A stretch of 41,048 bases of DNA from a virus: IMG/VR virus record IMGVR_UViG_3300025122_000044, positions 1 through 41,048 of that record; one strand, given 5' to 3'. This document shows, piece by piece, positions 1,273 to 33,681 of the stretch. The position numbers and the translations under genes are program-made. Below the pieces are notes generated by a model, which saw nothing but the letters and a program-made list of their open reading frames with translations, was not told the origin of the DNA and did not search any database. The stretch's first letter is position 1, and each line of letters begins with the position of its first letter.

Positions 1273-2237
1273 TACAGTGTTGTGCTTAAAGTAAAGCCAA
1301 GAAACTTATCTGTAGCACTCACCTGAAAGGTGGGCCAGACCCACAGGTCTGACACAAGGGGAACATCCAGCTTGGAAAGATTCACACCCACTGGACTAAT
1401 ACCAAGACCAACATGGCCATTGAAGTCTAGTGAGAACCTGCCGATACGGTAGTCTTGGTCGTTCTCGGTTAAACCATAACCGGATGTGATGAAACCTATT
1501 GAAGCAGATACGTTAGGATCAAGGGCGAGGTTGGAGGTTGCTGCTAGACCAAAATCAACGTGTGGTGTCCACCAACTAAGACTCTTCTGAGGAAATTTTC
1601 TAACTCTCTTGACAGTAAAGTCTTTGATATCGAAAGTTCCTACAATTTCTCCATTCAGATCTAACTCATCAACCCCTACATATGTAAGAGTAACAGCATC
1701 AGGAGTTTCAGCTTCAATAAGCCTCACTCTAAAATTCTGTGATAGGTGGTAGTTGAATTTGCGCGTGCAGGTATTAAGAACTGTATCAAGCCTGAAGTCA
1801 CTAAACCCAAAGGTTCCACAATCCAGTGGCTCACCATCATGTGGCTCAATCCCCTCAAAGTCAGGGTCGAGGGATGCATCTGCGATAGGGCATTCCCCTC
1901 GCACTCTGCGGACGATCGTCTTAACAACGACGTCACCGCCGCCACTGCTCTCCAGTGTGGCCACCAACTCGCCTAGCCCTACAACTTTGGCATTGGCCTT
2001 CTCCAGGTCTGCCAGGACCTTGGCATTCTCCTCTTTCAAGGTGTCTAGCAGCGTTCGTGACGCCACCAAGTCTGTCCTGGCTCTCCCTAGCTCTGTATCA
2101 AGCTTGGTGATCTCCTGGCGCAACTCAGGGGCCTCTATCCGCCCTCTGTCTCTACCTTGTCCATAGGCAACGACTGCAATCAAGATTGCAAGTGCCAGGA
2201 CAAAGCCCTTTAGCCAATGTTTAGAAAGGTACGACAT
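1272..2237 (-). CDS. Membrane-anchored coiled-coil protein of unknown function
   Basis: A 321-residue protein. Residues about 8-27 form one hydrophobic segment (GFVLALAILIAVVAYG) that looks like an N-terminal membrane anchor or uncleaved signal. Residues about 38-95 are a charged heptad-like coiled coil. The remaining 200 residues contain alternating strands and glycine-rich stretches with no motif I recognise. The topology (short inside, coiled coil and domain outside) is like inner-membrane spanins, but the length is much greater than usual. The start overlaps the end of the primase-helicase gene by 17 bases. Its function is unknown. Confidence 0.6.
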   Translation of the reverse strand: MSYLSKHWLKGFVLALAILIAVVAYGQGRDRGRIEAPELRQEITKLDTELGRARTDLVASRTLLDTLKEENAKVLADLEKANAKVVGLGELVATLESSGGGDVVVKTIVRRVRGECPIADASLDPDFEGIEPHDGEPLDCGTFGFSDFRLDTVLNTCTRKFNYHLSQNFRVRLIEAETPDAVTLTYVGVDELDLNGEIVGTFDIKDFTVKRVRKFPQKSLSWWTPHVDFGLAATSNLALDPNVSASIGFITSGYGLTENDQDYRIGRFSLDFNGHVGLGISPVGVNLSKLDVPLVSDLWVWPTFQVSATDKFLGFTLSTTL

Positions 2238-4800
2238 CTTCTCCCTCTGGTGTAGTTGCTCTTACAAATTGTCCATTCTCCCAGTACCCACCAGTCGTAT
2301 CTTGGTCCTTGGCAGCAAGCTTTCGCTGACGGATCACTTCTTCATCTACAGGTAGATAGAGAGATTTAGCTGGATGGAAGTCATAGTAGGTAGACTCCTT
2401 GTAATCAGTAATCTTGTTCTTGCCCCAGATCAACTCGACTGTAGGCTTCTTATGTCCAATGCCACCCTCGAATCCGTGGAATACTTCAGCTTTCTCAGCG
2501 CTTCCGTACGCCTTAACATGCTCTTCTACATCACAGAATAGGTGACCAATGAAGTTCGCTCGGAACTCCATTGCTACAGACTCTGCAATGTTGGTGTTAT
2601 TGGGTCGGACAAGTGGTCCTAACTTGGTGTACTCCATAGTAGCGATCACTGTCGCATGGTACTTCATAGCTATCTCTAGCTTGATGAAGTTAGCCATCTT
2701 CTTAAACCTAATTCGCTCATCAGCAGCCTGCCAATCAGCTAGGTTGTGGAAGTTGTCTAGGAAGTAGATAATAGGACGGTCAGGATACTTCTTACGATAG
2801 TATCCGACTAGCAGTTGAGCATAGGAGAGTGTCTGACCCCTCTCATGATCCTTACAAACGAGACGGCCCTGCGCATGCAGGCTACGCAAGTGCTGATACG
2901 CATGATCCCTGATGAACATGAGATCCTTATGCTCACCATTATGGTTGACGTGTTGGGTGAAGTACTTCGGCTTGGATATCTTGTTGATTGTAATATCCAA
3001 CCCATGCTTCTCTGCCTCATCAACTGACAACTGAGTAAGCCACCTATTCGTGATCATCCCTCGTGTATCATCAATTGTATGGAATAGGATCAAAGCTTCT
3101 GGATTGCTCATGACTAAGTCAAGAGCCAACTGACTCATAAAGGCTGTCTTTCCGGTGTTGGCCTTGCCGCCAACTACCATCAATACATCCTGTCTCCAAT
3201 CACCATTCAGCTTCTGCTCGATATCTGTAAAGTGATCTAGCTTATAGCCAGCTAGGCCATCATCTAGCTCTTGCTTCTCCTTAAGAGTATCAAGAGCTTC
3301 AACTACCTCTTCCGCACTAAACGATGCCTCAGTCTCTTGCCCACCCAGACTACCTAAACGGCTCAGGGCTTCTTGCAAGAGGAGGGTAGATGAATCTGGA
3401 TTACGAGCTGCCTCTCGAAGGGCTTCCTTGACAATCTCTTCTTTCTGAGAGCTTAAGTCAGCTTCCTGAATGTTAACGAGTCGCTCAAGCTCTCCCTTGA
3501 TAGCATCTAGGCTGATGGATGTGTACCTTGATAAGGATACACACATCTGCTCACGCTTTACTAGGTTTTCTTCGTTGAAGATGAGAGGGATAGCTTTGTT
3601 GCAGACTTCAACAGCATCCGCGCCGTCATCAAACTGCCCAAGTACCCATTCGAAAGCATCCTGTCGTGGCCATTCCAGCCAAGCATCTGCTCCTCTAGTG
3701 CGAACAAATGAATCTGGATCCTCTCCCTCTGGGAGAGTCATTACCTCGATTCTGAGTGAGGATACTCCTGATAGGATTCCCGGTTTACTATCTCTACCAA
3801 GTAGGAGGGAGGCGACTTTATCTTGTCCTGCTTTATCTCCATCGAGTGCAAGGACAATATGTTTGACCGCCGTTCGCTTAATAGTAGAGAGATGTAGCCG
3901 TGTAAAAGCAGTCCCACCAAGAGCGGCACAGCTATCAATGCCATTAAACACAAGAGTGGCCCAATCAGTATAGCCTTCAACCACGAAGAGCGCGTCATCC
4001 GTACTTTCTCTTGTCCGGAGCGCGTGGTGTAGACCGTAGAGTCGACTGCTCTTCTGGTAAATGTCACGGGTGCCACTAGTAGTTAGGTTAACATACTTAG
4101 GTGGCTTTCGCCCTCTCTTGCTATTGTTCTCCCACAGCTCAATCTTTTGCTCCCAGAGCAAGTCTCTTGCTGCGAATCCTACTGCTGATCCACCTTCATC
4201 ACAGATTGTAAAGATCAGTGAGTTTTCATTGAAGATAGACCTACGATCTAGGTCGATCTCCTTTAAGAACTTTACTAAGAACTCTTTCTTAAGCTCTTCC
4301 TGATAAAGTTCAAAGCTGGGAACAGTACCAATACCATACCGGCGAGCCCAATCAGGGCTCCAACCACGCTGATTAATAGCGTTGTTGACCAATTCATTAT
4401 CAGTGGTCCTACTAACGATACGTGCAGCACGAGAGTAAGCACGATAGATATCAAGCTCATATTTCTCGGCATCTGTTAGCTCCTCGAACTCAGCTTCAAC
4501 ACCAAACTTACTGCACAGATACAGGACATTATCAGGAATGTATCCTCGTCCTTGGATAGGCTTATTCTCATGGTAATGAGCAGCCAACATGATATTGCCG
4601 GTCAACCCACATGCAAAGCAGTGGAAGATATGGCCATCAGGATGAACAGACATATCGTCTCCATCCACATCATGCTCGTTAGGATTGAAGCACTTAAAGT
4701 GCTTGCCATTCCTAGCCTTAACTCCAAATTCTTCCAGGTAGTCAACTAGATATGGCTTCAGCCGATCAATTGTCTCCTGATAGTCCTTAATCTTCAGCAT
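2221..4800 (-). CDS. Bifunctional DNA primase-helicase
   Basis: An 859-residue fusion of primase and replicative helicase. The N-terminal zinc motif uses C37, H43, C61 and C64 (CHC2 type). The Toprim domain shows VEGYTD at 274-279 and ALDGDKAG at 318-325, the acidic residues of primer synthesis. A DnaB/RecA-type helicase domain follows, with Walker A GGKANTGKT at about 544-552 and a Walker B-like IIYFLDNFHN. The layout matches T7 gp4-like proteins, though longer. It would unwind the fork and make primers for the DnaE polymerase encoded downstream. The protein ends in EGEDVVPF, which resembles the acidic DIPF tip of single-strand binding proteins. Confidence 0.92.
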   Translation of the reverse strand: MLKIKDYQETIDRLKPYLVDYLEEFGVKARNGKHFKCFNPNEHDVDGDDMSVHPDGHIFHCFACGLTGNIMLAAHYHENKPIQGRGYIPDNVLYLCSKFGVEAEFEELTDAEKYELDIYRAYSRAARIVSRTTDNELVNNAINQRGWSPDWARRYGIGTVPSFELYQEELKKEFLVKFLKEIDLDRRSIFNENSLIFTICDEGGSAVGFAARDLLWEQKIELWENNSKRGRKPPKYVNLTTSGTRDIYQKSSRLYGLHHALRTRESTDDALFVVEGYTDWATLVFNGIDSCAALGGTAFTRLHLSTIKRTAVKHIVLALDGDKAGQDKVASLLLGRDSKPGILSGVSSLRIEVMTLPEGEDPDSFVRTRGADAWLEWPRQDAFEWVLGQFDDGADAVEVCNKAIPLIFNEENLVKREQMCVSLSRYTSISLDAIKGELERLVNIQEADLSSQKEEIVKEALREAARNPDSSTLLLQEALSRLGSLGGQETEASFSAEEVVEALDTLKEKQELDDGLAGYKLDHFTDIEQKLNGDWRQDVLMVVGGKANTGKTAFMSQLALDLVMSNPEALILFHTIDDTRGMITNRWLTQLSVDEAEKHGLDITINKISKPKYFTQHVNHNGEHKDLMFIRDHAYQHLRSLHAQGRLVCKDHERGQTLSYAQLLVGYYRKKYPDRPIIYFLDNFHNLADWQAADERIRFKKMANFIKLEIAMKYHATVIATMEYTKLGPLVRPNNTNIAESVAMEFRANFIGHLFCDVEEHVKAYGSAEKAEVFHGFEGGIGHKKPTVELIWGKNKITDYKESTYYDFHPAKSLYLPVDEEVIRQRKLAAKDQDTTGGYWENGQFVRATTPEGEDVVPF

Positions 4801-6714: not shown

Positions 6715-9700
6715 CTAATATCGTGCTGTTACTTCAGCATCGGGTATAGCCCGTGAGATCTCCCTCCTCAGTTCGTTAGGGTTTACAATCCGTGTGTCGG
6801 GAGAAAACCATCCGTCACCAACACTTACTTTCAACCATACATTCCCACCTTTATATCTAGGTAGGATCCCTGACAACTTCTCCACATCTTTTGTAGTGGA
6901 GATCCTCACTTCTAGGCCCTTGCAACTATCTTCTGCAAGGTCTTCGAGAGAAGCAACTGCTCGCGCAATCACTCCCTTCTCACCCTTTCTTGTATTCACC
7001 TGTCCTCTAATCAGGACAGCACCTCCCTCCTCTAAGAGAGAGGCATGCTTCAGGTACGTACCTGAGAAGCAAGTGACTTCTACTTCGCCTGTCTTGTCAC
7101 CTAAGGTGACCCAAGCCATTGGACCAGACTTCGATTGATAGATCGAGACCCGCCCAATAAAGCCACCGACAACTACATCCTTGTTGTCTGGAACTTCTTC
7201 AAGATTGATAGCTTCACAGGTTACTTTCTCTTGTAGTACCTCTCGAAAAGCATCAAGTGGATGCCCCGATAAGAAAATACCCAGAGCTTCATGTTCATTC
7301 ATGAGCTCTAGCTCTTTATCAGGTGGTACCTCTGGAATAAAGAAGTCGTTAGTCTCTTTGAAGAGGCTTCTCTGACCACTACGACGGTCAGCTTGATGTC
7401 GCTTGGCCTTGAGGATTGCATCCTCATATCCATACGCTAGCTGAGCCCGAGTATGGACCATGCTGTCAAATGCTCCTGCATGGATAAGAGTAAGTACGTT
7501 ATTGGTTCGGCACTTACCAAGGTGAACTCGTTTGACGAAATCATAAATGTTCTCAAACGAACCCTTGCTGCGAGCCAATATGATTGCATCGATCGCCGAG
7601 GTTCCAAGTCCTTTGATTGCCTCGAACCCAAAGAGAATTTGCTCATCTTTTGCTGTAAACTCCTGAATACTTGTATTGATATCGGGACCAAGCACTCCCA
7701 CTCCTGCGTCTCCAGCCTCTGTTACCAGATCCTGAATCGCAGCAAAGTCTCCTGCCTTGACTGACATCGAGGCCGCTAAGAATTGTGCTGGATAATAGTA
7801 CTTCAGATATGCAGTCTGATATGCAATGATTGCGTATGATACCGAGTGTGCCTTGTTAAAGCAATAATCAGCAAAGTCTGCAATGCCTTTCCAAGCTGTA
7901 GCTAAGACAGCTGGGTCATTTCCCAGCTCTGTCCCACCACCGATGAACTGATCCTTAAGAGCAGCCATTTCCTTGGGTTTCTTCTTGCCGATGGCACGAC
8001 GCATCAAGTCTGCTTCCGCCAAGCTAAATCCAGCTAGATCTTGAGCAATCTTTAGAACCTGCTCTTGGTAAACCAGAACACCATCTGTAGAGGCTAGGAT
8101 AGGAACGACGCTTGGATGGGACGTCCACCCTGCCGTCAGCGTACCCCCTCCTCTTACCTTGAGAATCTCCTTAAGCATCCCGTTATCCATTGGACCGGGA
8201 CGGTACAATGCAAGCACGGCACTTAGTTCATCTATGCTACGAGGACGGAACGCCTTGGCAAAGCTCCGCATACCCTTCTTTTCCATCTGAAAGACACCAT
8301 AACTACTACCCGTATCAAAGATATTGGCATAGACATCAGCGTCTTCTAGATCTAGGTCTACTACATCAAACCCTGGTACTGTTTCTTGAATCATATTGAC
8401 TGCTAGATCAATAACATCCAGTGCAGCAAGGCCCAAGAAGTCATACTTTACATACCCTGCATCCTCTACCTCTTTCATATCCCACTCTGTCACTGGGATA
8501 GTAGTCTTAGGATTCACTCTACCTAGAGGAATTTCATACCCCAAAGGTTTATCGTGAATAATGATTCCTGATGCATGGATGCTAGTATGTCGTCGAAGAG
8601 ACTCAATCTGCGCACCTAGATCGCAGATCTTCCTGAAGTCTTTATCTCCCTCGTACTTAGCCTTGAAGGTCTTGTCCAAGATGCAATAATGCCTCTTGGG
8701 CTTACCATGCTCATCGTACTCTACATCGGTCGAAAGGGTGACTCTGTGTCTGCCCTGGCCACCTCTGTCTTCGTCGGGGATTGCCTTCGCAAATTCGCTC
8801 TGTCGCTCGGCTCCGTGACCGAGGACTCGTGCAATGTCACGAACAAGCCCCTTTGGCTTGAAGATACTGGCGGTTCCGATATGAGCGACTTTGTCGTTAC
8901 CAAAACGCACGGCGAGTGCTTCAACCAGCTCGTCTCTTCTGCTTCTTTGGAAATCGGTATCGAAATCGGGCATAGATACCCGATGAGGGTTGAGAAACCT
9001 TTCAAAATACAAGCCGTACTCGACAGGATCAAGGTCAGTGATCCCCATGCAGTAAGCTGCAAGAGATCCGGCACCCGAGCCTCTCCCTGGTCCGACACGG
9101 ATACCCATGTCTCTAGCAATCTGGATGTACTCTGCGACCACCAAGAAATAAGATGGATAGCCCATTCGCTCGATAACTTCGAACTCATAGTCAAGCCGTT
9201 CTTGATAGCCGTCTGGAATTTCTGGAAACCGCTCTGCGAGCCCGGCTTGGGCAAGGCGGCGAAACCGTTGTTCATCTGTCTCCTCCTCAGATGCAAAGCT
9301 CGGAATAAAGACCTTAGTCTCTGCGAACTTTACATCACATGTTTCAGCCAAGTTCGCCGCAGCAAAACAAGAATCCCTCTGTCCGATAGCCGCGAATGCA
9401 TCGTGGATTTCGTCCGGAGTCTCAATGGAGAACATCTCTTCATTGAACTTGTGTCGCTTGGGATCTGATACCACCTTGCGCATGCCAAGACAAAAGTTAA
9501 TGTCCTGCATCTCGGAGTGGTCTTTGACTAAGTAGTGTGCGTCGTTGGTAGCAACGAGAGGAATATCCATCTGCCCTGACAGCTTGATCAAAGCCTTGTT
9601 ATAGGGAACCTGCTCCTCTTCTCCATTCAACTGAATTTCAAGGAAGTACCGGTCGCCGAAGATACTCTTGTACCTATCGGCGATCAATCCAATCATCTGG

Positions 9701-10167
9701 TTATCCCTCAGAGCCTCGGCCAATTCGGAACCAAGACAGGCAGAGAGACAAATAATCCCCTCGTTGTACCTCTCCAGCATATCGTAATCAATACGAGGCT
9801 GGGTATAGAAACCTCTGTTAAAGGCTTCGCTCATCAAGGCTACCAGGTTCTTATAGCCTTGCGAATCTTGAGCAAGGAGTACAATGTGGTTGGACCCACC
9901 CTTGTTTGAATACACCTTGCCATTAATCGTTCCCCGACATTTCTCTACATCGGGTACGATATATGCTTCTACGCCTGGGATATAATTTACCCCAAACTTC
10001 TTGGCAGCTTTTCTCATCTGCCAGATGCCACCTAATGTACCGTGGTCAGTGACTGCTACGCTAGTCATCCCATGGTCACGGCATCTCTTCATCAGGGCTT
10101 CTGCCTTGATGGTCCCATCCAGGAGCGAGTGTTCAGAATGCGTATGTAGATGTGCGAAGCGATTCAA
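6715..10167 (-). CDS. dnaE: DNA polymerase III alpha subunit
   Basis: An 1150-residue replicative polymerase of the bacterial C family, close to the usual length of DnaE1. The N-terminal PHP domain keeps its metal-binding residues (HLHTHSEHSLLDG, then TDHGTLGG). The palm carries the catalytic PDFDTDF at about residue 400. Near the C-terminus an OB fold can be seen (VVVGGFIGRVSIYQSKSG). No separate proofreading exonuclease or beta clamp is seen in the window, so it may use host clamp and PHP-based proofreading. It replaces the A- or B-family polymerase that most phages carry. It lies directly downstream of the DHH gene. Confidence 0.97.
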   Translation of the reverse strand: MNRFAHLHTHSEHSLLDGTIKAEALMKRCRDHGMTSVAVTDHGTLGGIWQMRKAAKKFGVNYIPGVEAYIVPDVEKCRGTINGKVYSNKGGSNHIVLLAQDSQGYKNLVALMSEAFNRGFYTQPRIDYDMLERYNEGIICLSACLGSELAEALRDNQMIGLIADRYKSIFGDRYFLEIQLNGEEEQVPYNKALIKLSGQMDIPLVATNDAHYLVKDHSEMQDINFCLGMRKVVSDPKRHKFNEEMFSIETPDEIHDAFAAIGQRDSCFAAANLAETCDVKFAETKVFIPSFASEEETDEQRFRRLAQAGLAERFPEIPDGYQERLDYEFEVIERMGYPSYFLVVAEYIQIARDMGIRVGPGRGSGAGSLAAYCMGITDLDPVEYGLYFERFLNPHRVSMPDFDTDFQRSRRDELVEALAVRFGNDKVAHIGTASIFKPKGLVRDIARVLGHGAERQSEFAKAIPDEDRGGQGRHRVTLSTDVEYDEHGKPKRHYCILDKTFKAKYEGDKDFRKICDLGAQIESLRRHTSIHASGIIIHDKPLGYEIPLGRVNPKTTIPVTEWDMKEVEDAGYVKYDFLGLAALDVIDLAVNMIQETVPGFDVVDLDLEDADVYANIFDTGSSYGVFQMEKKGMRSFAKAFRPRSIDELSAVLALYRPGPMDNGMLKEILKVRGGGTLTAGWTSHPSVVPILASTDGVLVYQEQVLKIAQDLAGFSLAEADLMRRAIGKKKPKEMAALKDQFIGGGTELGNDPAVLATAWKGIADFADYCFNKAHSVSYAIIAYQTAYLKYYYPAQFLAASMSVKAGDFAAIQDLVTEAGDAGVGVLGPDINTSIQEFTAKDEQILFGFEAIKGLGTSAIDAIILARSKGSFENIYDFVKRVHLGKCRTNNVLTLIHAGAFDSMVHTRAQLAYGYEDAILKAKRHQADRRSGQRSLFKETNDFFIPEVPPDKELELMNEHEALGIFLSGHPLDAFREVLQEKVTCEAINLEEVPDNKDVVVGGFIGRVSIYQSKSGPMAWVTLGDKTGEVEVTCFSGTYLKHASLLEEGGAVLIRGQVNTRKGEKGVIARAVASLEDLAEDSCKGLEVRISTTKDVEKLSGILPRYKGGNVWLKVSVGDGWFSPDTRIVNPNELRREISRAIPDAEVTARY

Positions 10168-15123: not shown

Positions 15124-15658
15124 TTACTTCCTCTCTTTGCCTTTCAATCCTCTGATAGAGATGCTCAAAGACTGATAAGCCTAAGCCCATCTCTTCTCGA
15201 CTGACCGGATTCATATTCTCAGGGATGGTTAGTGTTGTCACAATCCTTCCCTTACGGTTTAGTTTGGTGACAGGTAGGAGCTGACAATTATACGCCCTTC
15301 CCTGCCCCTCTACCTTTGGCCTATGCATCTCCTTAAAGGCATACATATCCTCACGACAGTGGAATGCTCGAAAGCATCCACATCGCTTACACATGAATGT
15401 GTATTGAGGGGTAGAGCGGATAGACAAGATGTCTCGTGGAAGACTCCTGAGAACGTCCAGAATGGTCTCCTCATGATCAGCCATAGCGCGGGCCCACTTC
15501 ATCTCTTGGTCGGCCTCTTGACGCGTCCTGTGCTCTCTAAGACGGTCTTGGTGAGCGCGCTGTGCGCTCTTGATCTCTCGTTGCTGCTTAGCCCGCTGCA
15601 ACTGGCGTTCTCGCGCCCTCTTCTGACTCTTCTTCATTGTTTTCCTCAGGGTCTGCAC
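15035..15658 (-). CDS. Hypothetical zinc-binding protein with basic coiled coil
   Basis: A 207-residue protein. The first 60 residues are a very basic, glutamine- and arginine-rich helix. A CKRCGCFRAFHC cluster near residue 90 may bind zinc. The C-terminus is acidic. An internal ATG at 15637 is an equally good start. It overlaps the end of recA by about 70 bases and the HAD gene by 89, so long stretches are read in two frames. Function unknown. Confidence 0.55.
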   Translation of the reverse strand: MQTLRKTMKKSQKRARERQLQRAKQQREIKSAQRAHQDRLREHRTRQEADQEMKWARAMADHEETILDVLRSLPRDILSIRSTPQYTFMCKRCGCFRAFHCREDMYAFKEMHRPKVEGQGRAYNCQLLPVTKLNRKGRIVTTLTIPENMNPVSREEMGLGLSVFEHLYQRIERQREEVNEREEDRATDIGVSEASPEDRGAGVATSQ

Positions 15659-16709
15659 GTAGCAGCTCTGCTAGATAATCCATTGTCTCTGGGTGATTGA
15701 CTAAAAATGCCCGGACCTGCTCTGCACCTTGCAGTCTCATTTCCTTAACAGTCCATTCGAGAGCAACAGGGATGCCGCTCTCATCATCATCACCTGTTGT
15801 AGAAGCATGCATAAATGGAAGAGTTAGCCAAGAGCCACTCTGTACCATTATGCCTTGCGCCTTGCACATATTGATCATGGCAAGGTATGCATCAAGCCCC
15901 TCTCCGAACCTGATCTCTCCCTCAAAATCTCTGAATGGAGGGAAGGTCTTGTTCTTAACGGTCTTGACTCTTACCTTATTAGCAATGATCTCTGTTCCCC
16001 TCTTAGTAGAACCGATACGACGTACATCGATACGAATGGAAGAGTAGAACTTAAGCGCTCTACCGCCTGGAGTAGTCTCGGGATTACCGAACATCACACC
16101 CAGCTTCATACGAATCTGGTTGATGAAGATGACTACACAGTCAGAGTTGAACACTGCGCCATTGATCTTACGAAGAGCCTGGCCCATGAGTCTAGCTTGA
16201 AGGCCCATGTGAGAGTCACCAATGTCACCCTCCATCTCAGCTCTTGGTACTAGTGCTGCTACCGAGTCTACAACGATCATGTTGCAAGCTCCTCGACACA
16301 GGTAGTCTACAATCTGCAAAGCTTGCTCACCTGTGGAGGGCTGGGAAAAGACTAGCTTACCCATGTCGATACCCAATGCCCGGGCATATTGAGGATCGAG
16401 GGCGTGCTCAGCATCGATAAACGCTACCTTGCCGCCTGCCTTCTGTACCTCTGCAATTGCATGCAATGCGATGGTGGTCTTGCCAGAAGATTCTGGTCCA
16501 TACAACTCGATGATTCTACCCTTAGGATAACCACCACCAAGAATTTCATCTAATTCCATGTTGCCACTAGAGTATCTCTCTAGAGGTTCTGGATTCATGT
16601 CATCAAAGACGTAAGCTGCGCCCTTTCCGAACTCTTTCTCAATACCATTGAGAGCAAGCTCTAGCGCTCGATCTTGAATCTCTTCTTCTGTTAGTTTCTT
16701 ATTCGCCAT
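15588..16709 (-). CDS. recA: RecA recombinase
   Basis: A 373-residue bacterial-type RecA. Walker A is GPESSGKT at about 71-78, Walker B is MIVVDSVAALVP, and the L2-region FINQIRMKLGVMFGNPETTPGGRALKFY is nearly canonical. It would pair homologous DNA during phage recombination and repair. Most phages carry UvsX or annealing proteins instead, so this close-to-bacterial form suggests acquisition from a host. The last 20 residues are acidic as in cellular RecA. It overlaps the dNMP kinase gene by 11 bases. Confidence 0.97.
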   Translation of the reverse strand: MANKKLTEEEIQDRALELALNGIEKEFGKGAAYVFDDMNPEPLERYSSGNMELDEILGGGYPKGRIIELYGPESSGKTTIALHAIAEVQKAGGKVAFIDAEHALDPQYARALGIDMGKLVFSQPSTGEQALQIVDYLCRGACNMIVVDSVAALVPRAEMEGDIGDSHMGLQARLMGQALRKINGAVFNSDCVVIFINQIRMKLGVMFGNPETTPGGRALKFYSSIRIDVRRIGSTKRGTEIIANKVRVKTVKNKTFPPFRDFEGEIRFGEGLDAYLAMINMCKAQGIMVQSGSWLTLPFMHASTTGDDDESGIPVALEWTVKEMRLQGAEQVRAFLVNHPETMDYLAELLRADPEENNEEESEEGARTPVAAG

Positions 16710-17259: not shown

Positions 17260-17632
17260 CCTCTCCTCGGGCTTCCTGGACCCTACTTAGGAAGCTTTCC
17301 TCATCGATGTCGAGTATCTCACACAGGTCTGTAAAAGTTACATCCCATGGAGACATCACCTTTGCTCCATTGAATAGGAAGTCAGCAGCTGTCTTCCATT
17401 CTTGGAACTCTGTATGTCCATCACTATACTCAGAGCTTTTAGACATACTGGTAGGGTCCATCTCCAAGTAGTCTTTTGTAGCTCTGGTAATGAACGAGAC
17501 AAGAAAGTCTATCGAGCCAGAGTTACTCGGAGTGGAATCTGGTTCCCACTCCGAGTAACCATACTCAGCTAACTCATCAACCTGTGGGGAAAGTACAGGT
17601 GTCGCCGTCGCAGAATTTTTCTCCCACTCCAC
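17231..17632 (-). CDS. Hypothetical protein in the RNR-kinase operon
   Basis: A 133-residue acidic protein. The segment EFQEWKTAADFLFNGAKVMSP is the most conserved-looking part and is followed by a predicted helical DLCEILDIDEESFLSRV, resembling the small proteins found beside nucleotide genes in other large phages. It overlaps the RNR gene by 56 bases and the kinase by 29. Function unknown. Confidence 0.6.
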   Translation of the reverse strand: MEWEKNSATATPVLSPQVDELAEYGYSEWEPDSTPSNSGSIDFLVSFITRATKDYLEMDPTSMSKSSEYSDGHTEFQEWKTAADFLFNGAKVMSPWDVTFTDLCEILDIDEESFLSRVQEARGEDESNYWSGT

Positions 17633-26471: not shown

Positions 26472-26805
26472 TTTTAAGGGCCTCCTGTAGTTCTTCTGAT
26501 GGTGGTGGCATCCTAAAGAGCCCATCCATCTCAATTTCAGGTGAGTTGGGTACAGGAGGTTGGGCTACGGCCTGTATATCAATTGCTACTTGAGTATCAA
26601 AGAGAACAGTAGCCCATTGTCCTGCACGATGACGTAATGCCTCTTTATAGACTTGCATCTCAACAGTGCCATCACTAACCTCATCTCGCGGTCGCTGCTG
26701 CGGGGGATCTCCTAGTTCTTGGTAAGCTAGTTTGAACCCAGCAGTGACACACTCAGAGCCTAACTCAACCAGACCTGGATCTAGTTTGGATTCTTCTTTA
26801 GACAT
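26446..26805 (-). CDS. Hypothetical protein
   Basis: A protein of 119 residues started at the ATG at 26805 (MSKEESKLDPG). The C-terminal third is proline-rich. The start lies within the last codons of the Whirly-like gene, so the two are coupled. Function unknown. It might act with the DNA-binding protein, which is inference from position. Confidence 0.55.
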   Translation of the reverse strand: MSKEESKLDPGLVELGSECVTAGFKLAYQELGDPPQQRPRDEVSDGTVEMQVYKEALRHRAGQWATVLFDTQVAIDIQAVAQPPVPNSPEIEMDGLFRMPPPSEELQEALKNVRIQPER

Positions 26806-27262
26806 CCCAGCCAAGCACCCTTGGTGTTGCAAACTCAATCAAGTTCACTAGAGACGTAATGTCCGCTGTACTCAAGAAGATGTTCACGAACCCGCTTTCA
26901 CCATCTGCTTGCTTGCCAGAGATGAATACCTTAAAGGTACCGGCTTGCTGGCCTGGCTCAATCTCTAACTTGCTTGTATCTCCGGTGCTAGGGTGCTTAT
27001 GAAAAAGCTTAACTCCTGCCCCCGTTCTCAAACCAGATAGAATCTGACCAAAGTCATTAAACCCTAAACCGATAAGAATCTTCTTGTCCCAGTCACTCTT
27101 ATCAGAGTTAGGAATTGCCTTGGCTGCTTCAACAAAGACACAGCCATTCCTCTCTACTCGCTGGTGATCACCACCCTCACTCCAGGTGGGTCCCTTGAAA
27201 GAGAATTGAATCTCTCCCTGCCCTCTACGATAGAAGGATGCATTTGATGTAAATTTTGCCAC
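26798..27262 (-). CDS. Whirly-like single-strand DNA-binding protein
   Basis: A 154-residue protein that I match by eye to the Whirly fold known from plant nucleoid and transcription proteins. The order of landmarks agrees: RNGCVFVEAAKAI, then SDWDKKILIGLGFNDFGQIL, then LFHKHPSTG, a strand pair around LEIEPGQQAGTFKVFIS, and the end EFATPRVLGWDV, which corresponds to the FALPHIMGWD end of plant Whirly proteins. Such proteins form tetramers that bind single-stranded DNA. No classical SSB is seen in the window, so this may be the phage replication SSB. It overlaps the 119-residue gene by 8 bases. Confidence 0.65.
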   Translation of the reverse strand: MAKFTSNASFYRRGQGEIQFSFKGPTWSEGGDHQRVERNGCVFVEAAKAIPNSDKSDWDKKILIGLGFNDFGQILSGLRTGAGVKLFHKHPSTGDTSKLEIEPGQQAGTFKVFISGKQADGESGFVNIFLSTADITSLVNLIEFATPRVLGWDV

Positions 27263-27621
27263 TATACCTCCACGTCACTCATGTTTGGAACTGGTTTGCC
27301 AGTCACTTTGCGTAGTGCGTTTGGGAGCGCTTGCTCCCAGTCCTGATCATCTGGCGGGCTCTCTCGCGAGAGCATCTCGATCATCTGCCTAAGTGCATCA
27401 GATGACAGGATCAGCCCCGCCCCTAGTGTGGGACGGAGCTTAAAATCTGCTTTGACTAGTTGAGGATTGACGTATGGACGGTCGTACAGAGCCTCACCAA
27501 GTTGCACCCCTAGATTGATCAGCATGTATGCTGACTCTAGTGGTTTTAACTTGTATTTGTTGATGACATCAGTGATATCATCCAGGCAGGCTTGTACCTT
27601 CTTCCTCCGAAATCCTTTCAT
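27262..27621 (-). CDS. Hypothetical protein
   Basis: A 119-residue helical protein that I do not recognise. It lies just downstream of the tmRNA and shares one base with the Whirly-like gene, so it begins the next run of coupled genes. The N-terminus is basic (MKGFRRKKVQ). Confidence 0.6.
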   Translation of the reverse strand: MKGFRRKKVQACLDDITDVINKYKLKPLESAYMLINLGVQLGEALYDRPYVNPQLVKADFKLRPTLGAGLILSSDALRQMIEMLSRESPPDDQDWEQALPNALRKVTGKPVPNMSDVEV

Positions 27622-27632
27622 CTATCTCTCTG

Positions 27633-28083
27633 TGGACCTGGCACGAGTCGAACGTGCGTCTTCAAACACTCATGTATCAATTGATACGACCATGCCTAAT
27701 TGCTGCTAGGCTCAGAAGGGCAAACATGGTTTGCCTCCACCAGGACATTCCTTATAGCTGAATCCGAAGCTCGTACTACCACATATTAGGCAGTACAATT
27801 TCTAAATTAAATGACCCACTCTTATAACCGCTGGTGTCTGGCGGGGTTGACGTTGATTCTGTTGAAAGGCTCAACGTTTCACAAAGCCCCTGTCACTACT
27901 TACGCAGCGACTGCGACGCGACTGCCGAAGAAAGAGCTAAGCTCCTCACGGATGTTCGCGAAGGTTTCAGAAATGGCGTTGCCAATTACTGTTTCACATA
28001 CTTTTATTCACGTGAGCCAAGCATGTTTCTCACGGGTCGCAATCTTTACCTTCTTGTATCCAAATCGATACCATTTCAGGCCC
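27633..28083 (-). ncRNA. ssrA: Phage-encoded tmRNA
   Basis: The 450-base gap holds a tmRNA. The 5-prime end GGGCCTG (28077-28083) pairs along all seven bases, with one G-U, with CAGGTCC at 27634-27640. The T arm reads GACGCACGTTCGACTCGTGCC, with a perfect five-pair stem and the TTCGACT loop typical of tmRNA. Between them lies an open frame for a proteolysis tag ending in AVAA and stop TAA at 27900-27902. Several hairpins after the tag could form the pseudoknots. The 3-prime end is A-C-A rather than ACCA, so CCA must be added, and this phage encodes a CCA-adding enzyme. tmRNA frees stalled ribosomes and tags their products for ClpP-type proteases. Both the tRNA half and the tag are seen directly. 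Confidence 0.88.
27900..27983 (-). other. tmRNA tag-peptide reading frame
   Basis: From GCG at 27959 the frame encodes ANIREELSSFFGSRVAVAA and TAA. A resume codon GGC at 27981-27983 is the better fit, because the bases just before it resemble those before the E. coli resume codon, and it would add eight residues. The VAVAA end is the signal recognised by ClpXP-type proteases in other bacteria. Confidence 0.75.
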
Positions 28084-28132: not shown

Positions 28133-28504
28133 TTAGAACGGTGGGTTACCGCCCGTCGTGATGGCTCCACCACTCGTACCACCACCAGATGGTGTGGTCG
28201 TAGCAGCTGCTCCACCAGTCTCTGCTTCGTATGCAGCGGTGACATGCGCCAGGATCTCCTGGTACACCTCTCCGTTAATGCATCCGACTTCGTCGAAGTA
28301 CTTCTTGTTGCGTCCCTCAGCAGGCTGAGCTGGATCGTGGTTACGATTCTCATTCTGTGGGAAAGCCAAGAAATAGCCTCCGTCGTCCTTGCTGATCAGC
28401 CTGAAACGAATCCACAGTGCGTCTGCGATAGTTACACTACCTGCAGCAGCTACTCTGCTTGTTCCATTGTTTGGCCAGATCTTTGTCTCAGTAATACAGT
28501 TCAT
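28133..28504 (-). CDS. SpoVG-like nucleic-acid-binding protein
   Basis: A 123-residue protein. Residues 3-95 follow the SpoVG pattern: an N-terminal strand, a variable loop, WIRFRLISKDDGGYFLAFPQ as the central hairpin, and a YFDEVGCINGEVYQEILAHV helix. SpoVG proteins bind DNA and RNA site-specifically and regulate gene expression. The last 25 residues are glycine- and threonine-rich and end in NPPF, which recalls the flexible tail and PF tip of SSB proteins. The assignment rests on pattern matching. The gene lies between the reverse transcriptase and the tmRNA. Confidence 0.7.
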   Translation of the reverse strand: MNCITETKIWPNNGTSRVAAAGSVTIADALWIRFRLISKDDGGYFLAFPQNENRNHDPAQPAEGRNKKYFDEVGCINGEVYQEILAHVTAAYEAETGGAAATTTPSGGGTSGGAITTGGNPPF

Positions 28505-28517
28505 CTAATCTCCTAAT

Positions 28518-28718
28518 CTATCCTTCTTCGCTTCCAGCGTCAAGAAAACCCATGTGCTTCATCACCTTATCCACAGTGCTCATGAGCTCTTTCGCCAGTT
28601 CGACTTCTCGCTGTAGAAGGAGGAGTTGGTACAGGTCAGAGGCTCTGTTGTGGAAGTCGATCGTTATCAACTCCCACCTCTCCGGCTCTCCCGGAATCAG
28701 TCTCGCCTGATCTGGCAT
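28518..28718 (-). CDS. Hypothetical small helical protein
   Basis: A 66-residue protein from ATG 28718, which has GGAG just upstream. An ATG at 28730 is an alternative. The last 83 bases of the reverse transcriptase gene are also read by this gene in another frame. It is mostly helical (LYQLLLLQREVELAKELMSTVDKVMK). Its position directly after the reverse transcriptase makes it a possible retron accessory protein, but this is not shown. Confidence 0.5.
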   Translation of the reverse strand: MPDQARLIPGEPERWELITIDFHNRASDLYQLLLLQREVELAKELMSTVDKVMKHMGFLDAGSEEG

Positions 28719-29637
28719 GTTCTCCTTCATACGTTCTCATGAGAGAGTCGTATTGCGATTGCTTTATGCTTCTTATGTATTCGAGAAGTCCTTGACTACT
28801 ATCGTCAATCGATTTCCCGCGCAGTCCTAAAAAGTGAAGGTGCTGACGCAATGCGTTCCGTACCTTCTTCGAGACACCTAGTGTCTCATTATTTACAACA
28901 ATTCCAGTGACTGTCATCCTCTGGAAGTATGGCGTGAGCTTAACCTTCCGCTTATTCACACGGAAAGAAGCCTGCTCCATCAACTCACGTATCCGTCCAG
29001 TGAACCATTTGGGAATTTCTTTGCCACTAAAACTGAGATCATCAGCGTAGCGGGTATAGTTCAGTCCCTGTGAGTCAGCCAGTCGTCTCAGCTCAAAATC
29101 TAATGGAGTGAATACGATGTTGGCTAGTGCTGGACTAGTACATGCACCTTGCGGGAGGGCACCGTCGAGGGTACAGAGAGATGTGAGCACTTCTGCAGCA
29201 ACGGCTTCCCAATGCAAAGCTGGGATTGGATCTCCTGCCGCTATAGTTGGGGAGGTTTCCTCTCCAACAGCTTCCATCAATTGGACAGGCAGAGATTTCC
29301 ACACGTCTTCGCTCACACCCTGTAACATTTGATACACCATGTACGATGTTACTGATGGGAAGAAGTCCTTGAGATCGATGTTCAGTACATACCATTTCTC
29401 ATCCTTATCAAGATGGCGATGGGGCATGGCATTGGTGATGGGGCTACGCCCCTTTCTAAATCCATGAGCTGCATCATGAAGAGGAAAGGTATCGAACCAT
29501 GTCTTAGCTAGTTCCTGCCAGTGAATAATATCACCAATAGGTTCCGTAATCTTACGTCGCTTCCCGTTGGGTTTTGGTACATAATAGATGCGGTAGCAGT
29601 CTCGCTTATTAGCGAGGATCTTCTGCAAGCTATCCAT
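28636..29637 (-). CDS. Retron-type reverse transcriptase
   Basis: A protein of 333 residues from the ATG at 29637, which overlaps the TAA stop of the HNH gene (TAATG). An upstream ATG at 29670 is possible. The catalytic motifs are clear: NIDLKDFFPSV and YADDLSFSG (YADD about 197-200), with LPQGACTSPALANIVF before it. Two retron hallmarks are present: NAMPH (the NAxxH motif, about residue 69) and VTGIVVN (the VTG motif, about 243). These separate it from diversity-generating and group II intron enzymes. Retron RTs copy a structured ncRNA into msDNA. The enzyme is preceded by an HNH gene and a structured gap. Confidence 0.88.
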   Translation of the reverse strand: MDSLQKILANKRDCYRIYYVPKPNGKRRKITEPIGDIIHWQELAKTWFDTFPLHDAAHGFRKGRSPITNAMPHRHLDKDEKWYVLNIDLKDFFPSVTSYMVYQMLQGVSEDVWKSLPVQLMEAVGEETSPTIAAGDPIPALHWEAVAAEVLTSLCTLDGALPQGACTSPALANIVFTPLDFELRRLADSQGLNYTRYADDLSFSGKEIPKWFTGRIRELMEQASFRVNKRKVKLTPYFQRMTVTGIVVNNETLGVSKKVRNALRQHLHFLGLRGKSIDDSSQGLLEYIRSIKQSQYDSLMRTYEGEHARSGETDSGRAGEVGVDNDRLPQQSL

Positions 29638-30260
29638 TACAGCTGCTCTCCCTTCAGGAATGTCTTCCAACTTGGATGACTAACAGCAACTCCCCTAAAT
29701 GACTTCCACTTAGGAATGAATGGCTCTCTTAGCAACTTCATCCCTGCTTCTTCGGGTGTTCTTCCACCCTTCTGTGAGTTACAGGGAACACATGATGTTA
29801 CACAGTTCATGAAGTTGGTTCCTTGGAATCCATTCTTCTTAGCTCGTGGCACAACATGGTCAATGTTTAGTAGCCAATCCCCATTTCTATCTTTCTTCTT
29901 GCCACCATAGCTTACACCACAATACTGACAGGTGTAACGATCACGTTCAAAGATGCCATTCCGACTGTATTTTACAACTCTGTCAGGCAATCTATTGTAT
30001 CGTGTCAACACCAAGATATGAGGAACTAGTACTGGAATCTTAGCATTTCCATGTTGGAAATAACCGACACCCATTACGAGGTTCTCTTTGTCCACTGGCG
30101 CTTCTAGCCAGCTTTCTAAACTGTGAACCTCATATGTATCAGGATGGATAGCATTTGCTGAACCATTAAACAGTTGCCGAAAGGCTTGCTTAACATCCAC
30201 GATGTGGATCGGTATCCAGTGCTTGTTCAACACCAATGCGTCACTTTTTCGGCTCTTCAT
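29637..30260 (-). CDS. HNH nuclease paired with the retron reverse transcriptase
   Basis: A 207-residue protein. The first 90 residues resemble the N-terminal domain found in many bacterial HNH proteins (LNKHWIPIHIVDVKQAFRQLF). The HNH core is CQYCG, LNIDHVVPRAKKNG and NCVTSCVPCNSQKGG, with all expected residues. It has a normal ribosome site (AAGGATGAGGG), unlike the two leaderless HNH genes. Its stop overlaps the RT start. It could be the toxic effector of a retron defence unit or an ordinary homing nuclease; tight linkage favours the first, without proof. Confidence 0.85.
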   Translation of the reverse strand: MKSRKSDALVLNKHWIPIHIVDVKQAFRQLFNGSANAIHPDTYEVHSLESWLEAPVDKENLVMGVGYFQHGNAKIPVLVPHILVLTRYNRLPDRVVKYSRNGIFERDRYTCQYCGVSYGGKKKDRNGDWLLNIDHVVPRAKKNGFQGTNFMNCVTSCVPCNSQKGGRTPEEAGMKLLREPFIPKWKSFRGVAVSHPSWKTFLKGEQL

Positions 30261-30497: not shown

Positions 30498-31463
30498 TTA
30501 CACAGCTTTTAACTTGCCCTTGTAAGCTACATCATAGAGATTTAACTCTCGTAAGGTGTCTTGAAATTCAGACACCTTGTTGGCAGCGATCTCAAGATTC
30601 TTCTCAGTCAGCCGCACCGGGCTAGACTGATTGGTGAGCGTCTTGAAATACACCATGTGATGGTTCAAGGGCTCATGCTTGAGAATCTGCTGCAAGATAT
30701 TAAGCAGTACTTGAGAAGCCATCATGTTGACGAAGATCGTCTGAGGATTTTCAAGAGCTGCCTCTGCACAGCTTGCCCTGGCTGCTATCTCCTCTGTAGG
30801 AAGCATGCCTAGATCTTCGAATGCTGTTGGAAACATCTCAAAGTAGTTGGGTAGGGTAAACGGCGCTCGATCTGTATGAGTCGAGTCCATCCCGCGTATT
30901 GTTGGAAACCTACACCTGTAGCCTACAACAATCTGACCATGATGTTCCTCATTGCCAGAATCTAGCCAGAACGATTCGTATAGCTGACTTCTCTTCTCGT
31001 ACCACTTCCAAATCAATCGACGTGTCTTGTTGTTATCCACACAAGAAACGATGATTGGTTTAGCGTTACGAACTTGATTGAAGACTACCCGATCAATAGC
31101 TTCGGGAGTTTCCAAGAAGCTATTGGCATATGCGATATCCAGGCCAAATGCTGTGGAGTATCGCCGGGCCAACACCTCGGCCTTAGGCTTCCCAATGTCA
31201 CTTACAATGAAGTTCTGGCGAATGAGATTCTTCTCTTCTACCAGATCTCCATCCACAATAACCAACTTGATGGTATCTGCTCGGGATGAGCCCATCGCCC
31301 CTCGCCGGGTCTTGTTGATCAATGAGATGTATCGTGCGAGATGTGGGATAAGATAGCCACCAGTACCACCGGTACCCATGACAACCACAACCTTATCCAC
31401 CGCTCGATTAGAACCACCTCGACTGAAGTAATTCTTGAAGGGATATGTCTTCTCAATCTTCAT
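30498..31463 (-). CDS. E1/ThiF-like adenylating enzyme of PRTRC-like cassette
   Basis: A 321-residue E1-like protein. The nucleotide loop is GTGGTGG at about 30-36. VDGDLVEEKNLIRQNF (71-85) holds the acidic, asparagine and arginine residues for adenylation, and SCVDNNKTRR (140-149) matches the next conserved segment. C184 and C232 are candidate catalytic cysteines. It would adenylate the C-terminus of the Ub-like protein encoded at 34862-35062 and pass it to the E2. It is the last gene of the cassette, two bases from the JAB gene. Confidence 0.85.
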   Translation of the reverse strand: MKIEKTYPFKNYFSRGGSNRAVDKVVVVMGTGGTGGYLIPHLARYISLINKTRRGAMGSSRADTIKLVIVDGDLVEEKNLIRQNFIVSDIGKPKAEVLARRYSTAFGLDIAYANSFLETPEAIDRVVFNQVRNAKPIIVSCVDNNKTRRLIWKWYEKRSQLYESFWLDSGNEEHHGQIVVGYRCRFPTIRGMDSTHTDRAPFTLPNYFEMFPTAFEDLGMLPTEEIAARASCAEAALENPQTIFVNMMASQVLLNILQQILKHEPLNHHMVYFKTLTNQSSPVRLTEKNLEIAANKVSEFQDTLRELNLYDVAYKGKLKAV

Positions 31464-31465
31464 GA

Positions 31466-32995
31466 TTACCCTACAGTGTCCTCATCTTCCATTGCTGCCT
31501 TGAACATCTGAGTATAGACATCTGTCTCTTCATTATCCATCTCATCCATCAAGATGAGACCGAATGCCTCTGGATCTTCTTCGAAGGTAGTCACCGCGAC
31601 ATCGATCTCTGCAGCATATCCATTAGAGATCAGCCGACCAACAAACTTGATGACATCGCCTTGATCCATTGCAGTGCAGAGTTCATCTACACCTTCATAG
31701 AACTCATCATCGCCCAACATGAGCCACCCAAAGTCTCCAATGCCACGTGACCCGTGCGAATCGTACTTACGGGCAAAGTAGTCATCGAAGTCGTCCGGGT
31801 CCTCTCCCGCCGCCCAGACCCTCTCTGTCTCATCCTTCGACAGTCCGTACTTGATCCACTCATCGACAAATTGCTCGCCGAAGATCATCCGCAAGCGATT
31901 CTCGCGCATTTGAATAGTCTGTCCACCCACTGGAGCGGAAGAGACCCCAGGTCGTCCGAGGGGGAGACTGTACTGTCTTGGTTGAGAAGTTGGATGTCCT
32001 GTATAGGAACCACGAAAGCCGGCTGGTCGTCTATGGCCTCCGTAGCTTCCCTGTCCCATCCATGCTTGCATCCATCCATCGTCGTCATCGCTTGACCATG
32101 GCTCCCATCCACTGCCGCCACTACGTGCACCATGGACATGCTTGATGTGACCAGCATGCTTGGCTACATCTTGAACATTCTTGACCCACTCTTCGTGTGG
32201 GTACTGTACAATTGGAATCTCTTCCAAGCCTTCGATCGCTTCTTCTGTACAGTCGAACATATCCCAGAGACTCAACTTGACGTACTTGCCTGCTGCTGGA
32301 CAGTGAGCGCGCAGTGCCCACTCTGGTTTCTTACGCTCAACATGACCCACCACGCCGAACAACCTAAGAGCCTTCTCATCAGCTGTATCCGTACCCGAGA
32401 AGTAACCTGACATTGTATTATGACTATGGATCTCCATAGCTGTCAGATATCGCCCATTAGACTCATACTTATCATTCCGCTCATAATTGACGGAAGCCTT
32501 AGAGACTCGATGAGTAGGAACATCGATGAAGTATTCCTCTTCTTCCTTGTCCCAATAAATAACAGCATAAGCCTCAGCTTGCCGCATATCCTTACAGATC
32601 TTACGGAAAAAGCTTACGATCTGCGCAAACATATTGCGAGGAATCTTCGGCAGCTTGAGATGGAACCCTTCCTCAATACTTGATGAAAGTCCCTTGAGCT
32701 TGTTGTCATGCTGCTTTACAACGATGACACCAATCTCATTCTCTTCTCGCACATAGATACCATCACCCTGAGGGATGGTAGTTACCGGCTTTTCAAATGT
32801 ACCAGTAAGAACTCCTTCTTCAGGAATCTCTGACACAAAGCCGTGGCGGCGCTGAGCAATTCGGAGCTTGGCTGCATCCTTAGCAGCATCCCGCTCCTTC
32901 TTTGCTTTGTATTCCTCAACCCTATTCTTCATTTGCTCAGGTGTAGGCTTACCCTTCATTACCTGAACCTGCGTACCATTTCTTAATGAACCCAT
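31466..32995 (-). CDS. JAB/JAMM metalloprotease of PRTRC-like cassette
   Basis: A 509-residue protein. An N-terminal helical region of about 50 residues is followed by a JAB domain with the complete zinc motif HSHNTMSGYFSGTD (H190, H192, D203), the HxHx10D signature of active deubiquitinase-type isopeptidases. The second half, about 250 residues, is glycine- and serine-rich in the middle and then acidic, and has no motif I recognise. PRTRC protein A of plasmids combines the same domain with other material. It would process the Ub-like precursor or remove it from targets. It overlaps the E2 gene by one base. Confidence 0.87.
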   Translation of the reverse strand: MGSLRNGTQVQVMKGKPTPEQMKNRVEEYKAKKERDAAKDAAKLRIAQRRHGFVSEIPEEGVLTGTFEKPVTTIPQGDGIYVREENEIGVIVVKQHDNKLKGLSSSIEEGFHLKLPKIPRNMFAQIVSFFRKICKDMRQAEAYAVIYWDKEEEEYFIDVPTHRVSKASVNYERNDKYESNGRYLTAMEIHSHNTMSGYFSGTDTADEKALRLFGVVGHVERKKPEWALRAHCPAAGKYVKLSLWDMFDCTEEAIEGLEEIPIVQYPHEEWVKNVQDVAKHAGHIKHVHGARSGGSGWEPWSSDDDDGWMQAWMGQGSYGGHRRPAGFRGSYTGHPTSQPRQYSLPLGRPGVSSAPVGGQTIQMRENRLRMIFGEQFVDEWIKYGLSKDETERVWAAGEDPDDFDDYFARKYDSHGSRGIGDFGWLMLGDDEFYEGVDELCTAMDQGDVIKFVGRLISNGYAAEIDVAVTTFEEDPEAFGLILMDEMDNEETDVYTQMFKAAMEDEDTVG

Positions 32996-33681
32996 CAGTA
33001 ATTCTCGCCTCGGACTGTCTCGTTAATGACATCTAAAATTGTTTTGGAAAGATTATAGTCTGGGTCATGCTGATACTCGCCAGCAGTTGCACACTGCTGG
33101 ACAAAAGGCAGACTTCCACCTAAATCTTCGTTGAATGGAGTGGTATAGAAAGCATTGATAGCACCACGAACAGACCATAGGTTACGAATGTCAATGACAT
33201 TGTCACCCCAACATACGTTTCCATTGTCGTAGACATTGCCATAGCGATTGAAAGAGAAGACAGTGTCTCGCTCCCCTCTCACTGAGCGATGTAAGCCAAA
33301 GACTTTCATTCCTCTCAACCTATTGCCCGTCGCCTCGCCTGTTGATGGGACTGGGTTTAGGCAAAAGGCAAAGAGAAGATGGGGAAAAGGTACTTGCTCA
33401 ACAAAGGTTCGATCGTTGCTTCGGCGACCAAAATATAGGTCGCTTTTTCGAGGAGCTGACTCACAAATAAAGCCTTGCTTGTCACCTCGTTGCCCAAACC
33501 AGAGACAGCTTAAGGTTCCACCAGGAATCAAGCCAGTTTCAAACGATGTATCACTAAAGATATATCGTAGGTCATCTGGATTCACATTCTTTACAGTCTG
33601 AGTTGTTTTATGAAACTCAGTAATTGTAGCGAGTGAACCCTCAATCTCAATTGAGACCTTTTGCACTTCTCTAGATGCCAT
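32995..33681 (-). CDS. Prokaryotic E2-like conjugating enzyme (E2-D / PRTRC B)
   Basis: A 228-residue protein. The segment FNRYGNVYDNGNVCWGDN places a cysteine at about 157 in the VCWG context typical of the E2-D family found with PRTRC systems, where this cysteine is thought to accept the Ub-like protein. The upstream LLFAFCLNP and downstream helices also fit the family by eye. It shares one base with both the upstream 273-residue gene and the JAB gene, so all are coupled. Conjugation activity is inferred from family and neighbours. Confidence 0.8.
   Translation of the reverse strand: MASREVQKVSIEIEGSLATITEFHKTTQTVKNVNPDDLRYIFSDTSFETGLIPGGTLSCLWFGQRGDKQGFICESAPRKSDLYFGRRSNDRTFVEQVPFPHLLFAFCLNPVPSTGEATGNRLRGMKVFGLHRSVRGERDTVFSFNRYGNVYDNGNVCWGDNVIDIRNLWSVRGAINAFYTTPFNEDLGGSLPFVQQCATAGEYQHDPDYNLSKTILDVINETVRGENY

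Follow-up and report, generated by a model that had tools for sequence, protein, structure and literature searches.

Whirly proteins cover single-stranded DNA (ssDNA) inside chloroplasts and mitochondria. They have been called plant-specific (PMC6963530, PMC9070903, PMC11359715). In plants, the second lysine of the KGKAAL motif is needed for formation of the 24-mer and for protection (PMC6963530). The algal and Marchantia WHIRLY-like proteins are also without KGKAAL according to a 2022 review (PMC9070903), and high structural similarity has been reported for the proteins of Ostreococcus, Klebsormidium and Marchantia (PMC9070903). Further from this family stand the guide-RNA binding mitochondrial proteins MRP1 and MRP2 of Trypanosoma brucei, and the PC4-like ssDNA-binding protein of phage T5, a proposed promoter of recombination-dependent replication (PMC8545432).

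The window analyzed here is a linear fragment of 41,048 bases from an IMG/VR virus record, and it encodes a Whirly-domain protein of 154 aa at 26798..27262 on the minus strand. This protein shares the PF08536 family and the beta4-alpha-beta4-alpha fold of the plant Whirlies StWhy1/p24, StWhy2 and AtWHY1/2/3, but it has no organelle transit region and its gene sits in a phage replication and nucleotide-metabolism neighborhood. The algal and liverwort proteins, likened to it here by description, are eukaryotic and organelle-targeted, unlike the phage protein. MRP1 and MRP2 have the same fold (Z of about 14) but show no sequence match at the profile level. The T5 protein is likewise a phage ssDNA-binding protein with a eukaryotic namesake and the wider PC4/Whirly/PUR-type arrangement; however, it belongs to a different family, consists of a single beta4-alpha half that must dimerize, and was absent among the structural matches of the window protein. 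The locus places a familiar domain family in a kind of carrier new to it, and the protein departs from land-plant Whirlies in both motif and tail. Full-text searches of open-licence papers listed none described as reporting a phage Whirly; prior notice in databases is possible.

Family membership and fold of the window protein

The Whirly open reading frame starts with GTG and overlaps the stop codon of the preceding gene by one base. A first-pass annotation had recognized in it a Whirly-type order of segments and an LGWDV ending, and had assigned it to the Whirly fold and family; both readings were borne out. The chain ends LGWDV, and PF08536 was the only Pfam family returned by hmmscan (E = 4.6e-9; score 36.7 bits, cut-off 23), with the domain placed at aa 14-132 and the fold extending over the entire chain. 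In a phmmer search of the PDB, plant Whirlies took ranks 1-5 (E = 0.0016-0.019), with alignments that extend through the terminal LGWD. No SSB domain (PF00436) was detected in the Pfam scan of the window protein, whose model matches Whirly.

A viral profile built from 11 homologues (alignment A2) was run against the whole PDB. This search returned plant Whirly chains only, over approximately their full length, at E-values of 1.2e-21 to 5.5e-19; the first non-Whirly chain followed at E = 0.71, and MRP1/MRP2, which reach a Z of about 14 in fold comparison, gave no match at E up to 10. All 11 members of the alignment matched PF08536 individually, and so did L052 (70.5 bits); L018 scored 51.8 bits. 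No PUR domain appeared in the Pfam scans of the window protein and the other members. The best match of the window protein in PHROGs, the main phage family library, was no better than E = 0.15; as PHROGs holds no name for the Whirly family, the family is invisible to routine phage annotation.

An AlphaFold2 model built on the 11-sequence alignment (pLDDT 88.5, pTM 0.81) displayed the Whirly order of secondary structure, beta4-alpha-beta4-alpha, so that one chain contains two helices and two antiparallel sheets of four strands each. The top 12 PDB matches in Foldseek were all plant Whirlies (TM 0.76-0.85, normalized to the query), and plant WHY1/2/3 were recovered by both Foldseek and VIA-align 2. 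The latter gave Z-scores of 17.3-18.4 for plant Whirlies, 13.7-14.3 for trypanosome MRP1/MRP2 and 7 for PUR-alpha. Pairwise identity between the viral and plant Whirlies was about 20%. The first-pass annotation had made its assignment dependent on structure prediction, with an unrelated fold as the outcome that would speak against it; the model matched plant Whirlies. Taken together, the sequence profile, the structure prediction and the structural comparison confirm that the window protein is a true Whirly-domain protein.

In an alignment of 18 viral proteins, 25 columns reached a conservation of 80% or more, and about 15 of these have the same or a similar residue in three plant Whirlies. 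The positions common to viruses and plants are Y10, K11, A16, G39, A46, G50, W57, K60, F63, H87, K96, L98, E133, P146 and W151, corresponding to the Y-K that opens the first hairpin, an AA, a G, the stretch APxxG..YDWxxKxxF, an H, K.L, an E, a P and the terminal GW. At the KGKAAL site the window protein reads RRGQGEIQF, and its relatives mostly read YKKxGAAQF, in which the first lysine and the AA are kept and the second lysine is not. The acidic/aromatic disordered C-terminal tail of land-plant WHIRLY is absent from the window chain, which ends at LGWDV. Since KGKAAL is also missing from algal WHIRLY-like proteins, its absence here excludes the land-plant type and not the domain family. The phage protein thus belongs to the Whirly domain family but falls outside the land-plant type. 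One viral member (L018:7977-8480) is extended at its C-terminus by EDDNEELFAEIDELRELILKLQVRLKS, a segment acidic at first and then coiled-coil-like; it was the sole extended member.

Carriers and gene neighborhood

Single-protein queries of IMG/VR with the window Whirly or with the window reverse transcriptase gave no matches. Related records were reached through the DNA polymerase III alpha gene (6715..10167, minus; PF07733, PF17657 and PF02811), and in four of these seven records a Whirly homologue was present, with identities of 26-45% and in every case a score above the Pfam cut-off. Alignment-based scans of IMG/VR added further homologues, bringing the family to 22 viral records (the window and 21 other IMG/VR contigs, of up to 192 kb), with some redundancy, as G003 and G004 share the same gene and L028 and L029 are identical at the Whirly gene. 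One pair of close relatives showed 91% amino-acid versus 77% nucleotide identity, and another pair showed a dN of 0.14 with saturated dS. Higher identity at the amino-acid than at the nucleotide level, together with low dN and saturated dS, indicates that the gene is under purifying selection.

A terminase large-subunit profile matched five of the larger records: the nearest relative (G002, 120 kb), G003, G009, G011 and G019. Weak matches in G006, G013 and G021 were left uncounted as they overlap or resemble the PhoH ATPase. The presence of terminase in these five records identifies the carriers as tailed phages, so the phage setting proposed for the window in the first-pass annotation stands by way of its relatives. 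The sole cultured-phage homologue found was ME3_95, a hypothetical protein of 121 aa from Acinetobacter phage vB_AbaM_ME3, encoded 3.4 kb from recA. It matched the viral Whirly profile at E = 2.5e-9 and was the best match among the predicted viral structures of BFVD (TMt 0.78); Pfam did not recognize it, and it was reached only via structure and the viral profile. Compared with the window protein it is shorter and lacks the first hairpin, and both the host and the phage lineage differ. No Whirly relative was found by tblastn in INPHARED phages and plasmids, and 85,000 prokaryote genomes, scanned twice with short exact patterns that distant homologues would escape, likewise gave none. The gene is thus conserved within a group of tailed phages that are large and known mostly from metagenomes.

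The first-pass annotation had placed the Whirly gene near replication genes. This holds loosely, in that DNA polymerase III alpha, a DnaG/DnaB-type primase-helicase (2221..4800, minus; DNAG_N, Toprim_2 and DnaB_C matches) and RecA (15588..16709, minus; PF00154, E = 2.7e-116) lie 10-25 kb away. Immediately beside Whirly stand a SpoVG-like gene, a tmRNA and the gene of a retron-type reverse transcriptase. RecA is a likely functional partner of Whirly. The window also encodes a class II RNR, IMP dehydrogenase, dUTPase, UDG, dNMP kinase, PhoH, a CCA-adding enzyme and ClpP.

Directly upstream of Whirly, and joined to it by the one-base overlap, lies a gene for a small helical-looking protein of 119 aa (27262..27621, minus). 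A similar-sized gene occupies this position in most related contigs; across the subgroups only position and size agree, as a profile comparison with the 85-100 aa gene found elsewhere gave no sign of homology. Beyond it come the tmRNA (27630..28083, minus; Rfam RF00023, 71.2 bits against a cut-off of 47), the gene of a SpoVG-like nucleic-acid-binding protein (28133..28504, minus; PF04026, 27.9 bits, just below the cut-off of 29.6, with a model that matches solved SpoVG structures) and the reverse transcriptase gene (28636..29670, minus; RVT_1, PADLOC RT_III-A at E = 1.8e-63). In the window and its closest relative, HNH, reverse transcriptase and ThiF genes lie upstream of a shared series of SpoVG-like gene, tmRNA, small helical gene and Whirly. 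The reverse transcriptase is not conserved in most Whirly contigs and is present in L016; of the loci tested, none but the window and this nearest relative had the tmRNA and the reverse transcriptase. About 14 contigs share, with small variations, the arrangement JAB, ThiF, ubiquitin-like, (kinase-like), PhoH, (small helical gene), Whirly, followed by a small gene, the SpoVG-like gene, a gene of about 185 aa and often RNR, with RecA further on. Of 19 contigs examined, 16 have a SpoVG-like gene no more than about 1.5 kb from Whirly.

Members of the SpoVG family act as regulators. The model of the window SpoVG-like protein is of moderate confidence (pLDDT 71); from residue 99 its pLDDT falls below 50, in a disordered linker and tail ending ...GGNPPF. 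The C-terminal tips among the relatives (PPF, PIPF, MPY, PLW and SDEW) are aromatic, and an aromatic tip of this kind recalls the C-terminus of SSB; the three cleanly read OB-fold SSBs of the Whirly records end without one. The SpoVG-like protein may itself bind ssDNA, as one more such protein of these phages, or it may act as a Whirly partner. The same architecture of domain, disordered linker and conserved aromatic tip was seen in relatives including L017:8816-9205 and L034:9538-9900.

Proposed role and origin

The reading we prefer, with a probability of roughly 0.75, is that these proteins form a viral Whirly branch of large tailed phages and serve as ssDNA-binding accessory proteins in replication and recombination, beside an OB-fold SSB. 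From the predicted fold and the kinship with plant Whirlies, we infer that the chains would assemble as tetramers via their two helices and bind ssDNA along the two antiparallel beta-sheets, without strong sequence preference, as the plant proteins do. Whirly would then most likely coat and guard the ssDNA arising in phage replication and in RecA-dependent recombination, a coating that would keep short repeats from re-annealing and ends from being joined wrongly; limiting annealing at short repeats is a role shown for the plastid Whirlies (PMC6963530). It would act alongside the OB-fold SSB, in addition to it in about half of the sampled records, and probably works together with the adjacent SpoVG-like protein. 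We infer a division of labor among Whirly, the OB-fold SSB and the SpoVG-like protein. Against this reading speak the second KGKAAL lysine, which the viruses do not conserve, the missing acidic/aromatic tail, and the OB-fold SSB that nine of 20 records already encode.

The SpoVG-like neighbor could instead be the protein that handles ssDNA, leaving Whirly to RNA binding or transcription. Whirly would then mainly bind RNA or act on transcription, in guide-RNA annealing, as a transcription factor or in a late-gene switch, and not in replication. In plants, RNA binding and functions in splicing and transcription are likewise known for Whirlies (PMC9070903), the fold is shared with the RNA-annealing MRP1/MRP2 (Z of 13.7-14.3), and a tmRNA and a SpoVG-like protein are among the window neighbors. 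We nevertheless consider such a role unlikely: the sequence kinship is with the ssDNA-binding plant Whirlies and not with MRP, the block contains the replication and nucleotide-metabolism genes RNR, RecA and PhoH, and, within the loci tested, the tmRNA, like the reverse transcriptase, did not occur beyond the window and the relative nearest to it.

The relationship to SSB was examined across the Whirly-bearing records. An OB-fold SSB (PF00436) was found in 9 of 20 records and was not found in the window, in G002 (120 kb) or in G003 (190 kb); these negatives are weak, as the record search was a loose first-look filter that missed PF08536 in the window. The remark in the first-pass annotation that no ordinary SSB was in view holds for the scanned open reading frames of the window and fails for the group. 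The presence of SSB in nearly half of the records does not support a simple replacement, and we reject the idea that Whirly generally stands in for an absent SSB. That Whirly is the main SSB of the phage, in place of the OB-fold protein, is thus very unlikely; the lack of a PF00436 match in the window, G002 and G003 favors it, but the records are fragments, and the SpoVG-like neighbor with its SSB-like architecture is another candidate. Coexistence of Whirly and SSB in these phages resembles the situation in plant organelles, which contain mtSSB and OSB proteins as well as Whirlies (PMC6963530). Finally, a resemblance of fold alone, through convergence or very remote kinship of the kind seen with PUR or PC4 domains, has a negligible chance of being the explanation: Whirly, PUR, MRP and PC4 do have a general beta4-alpha arrangement in common and identity to the plant proteins is only about 20%, but the profile matches run over the full length at E-values of 1e-19 to 1e-21 with matching motifs, and Z falls from 18 for plants to 7 for PUR.

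The accessory ssDNA-binding role we prefer leaves room for a broader and more tentative idea, which we regard as rather doubtful: Whirly may primarily be a phage ssDNA-binding family, whose phage branch would be a core replication/recombination factor forming a module with a SpoVG-like protein, and plant Whirlies may have been taken up from a phage early in plastid-bearing eukaryotes. The organellar T7-like primase-helicase and RNA polymerase have already been ascribed to phages, and phage-derived plant Whirlies, if the idea is true, would join them as parts of organellar replication. The phage proteins are candidates for the source of a plant organelle protein with unexplained origin and, as some occur beside an OB-fold SSB, they provide a prokaryotic setting for Whirly roles beyond those of SSB. 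The cultured phage ME3 makes the idea testable.

Other features of the window and its relatives

The RNR of the window (17577-19565, minus) is of the B12-dependent type; its Pfam barrel-domain match covers only aa 214-258 of 662, and the protein is possibly divergent. The retron-type reverse transcriptase gene overlaps an HNH nuclease gene (29637-30260), and no msr-msd RNA was located for it. The region 30498-33681 (minus) encodes ThiF/E1, JAB and an E2-like protein (Prok-E2_D, below the cut-off), and ubiquitin-like conjugation genes were observed near Whirly in most contigs. Small ubiquitin-like proteins ending ...ATGSVKGN were recognized by eye, without a Pfam match, in relatives (L017:4067-6255 and L020:4878-5552); in L020 three tandem copies in one open reading frame resemble a polyubiquitin precursor.

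Phage tmRNAs are known from about 2% of phage genomes (PMC9004378). The window copy, which was missed by ARAGORN, has a tag of approximately 27 aa by eye, ending VAVAA. Its counterpart occupies the same place in L016 (6847-7252, plus; Rfam 89.7 bits) and carries an unusually long tag of 30 aa, ADMIESIETVFAGLRADFAMIFGSGELALA.
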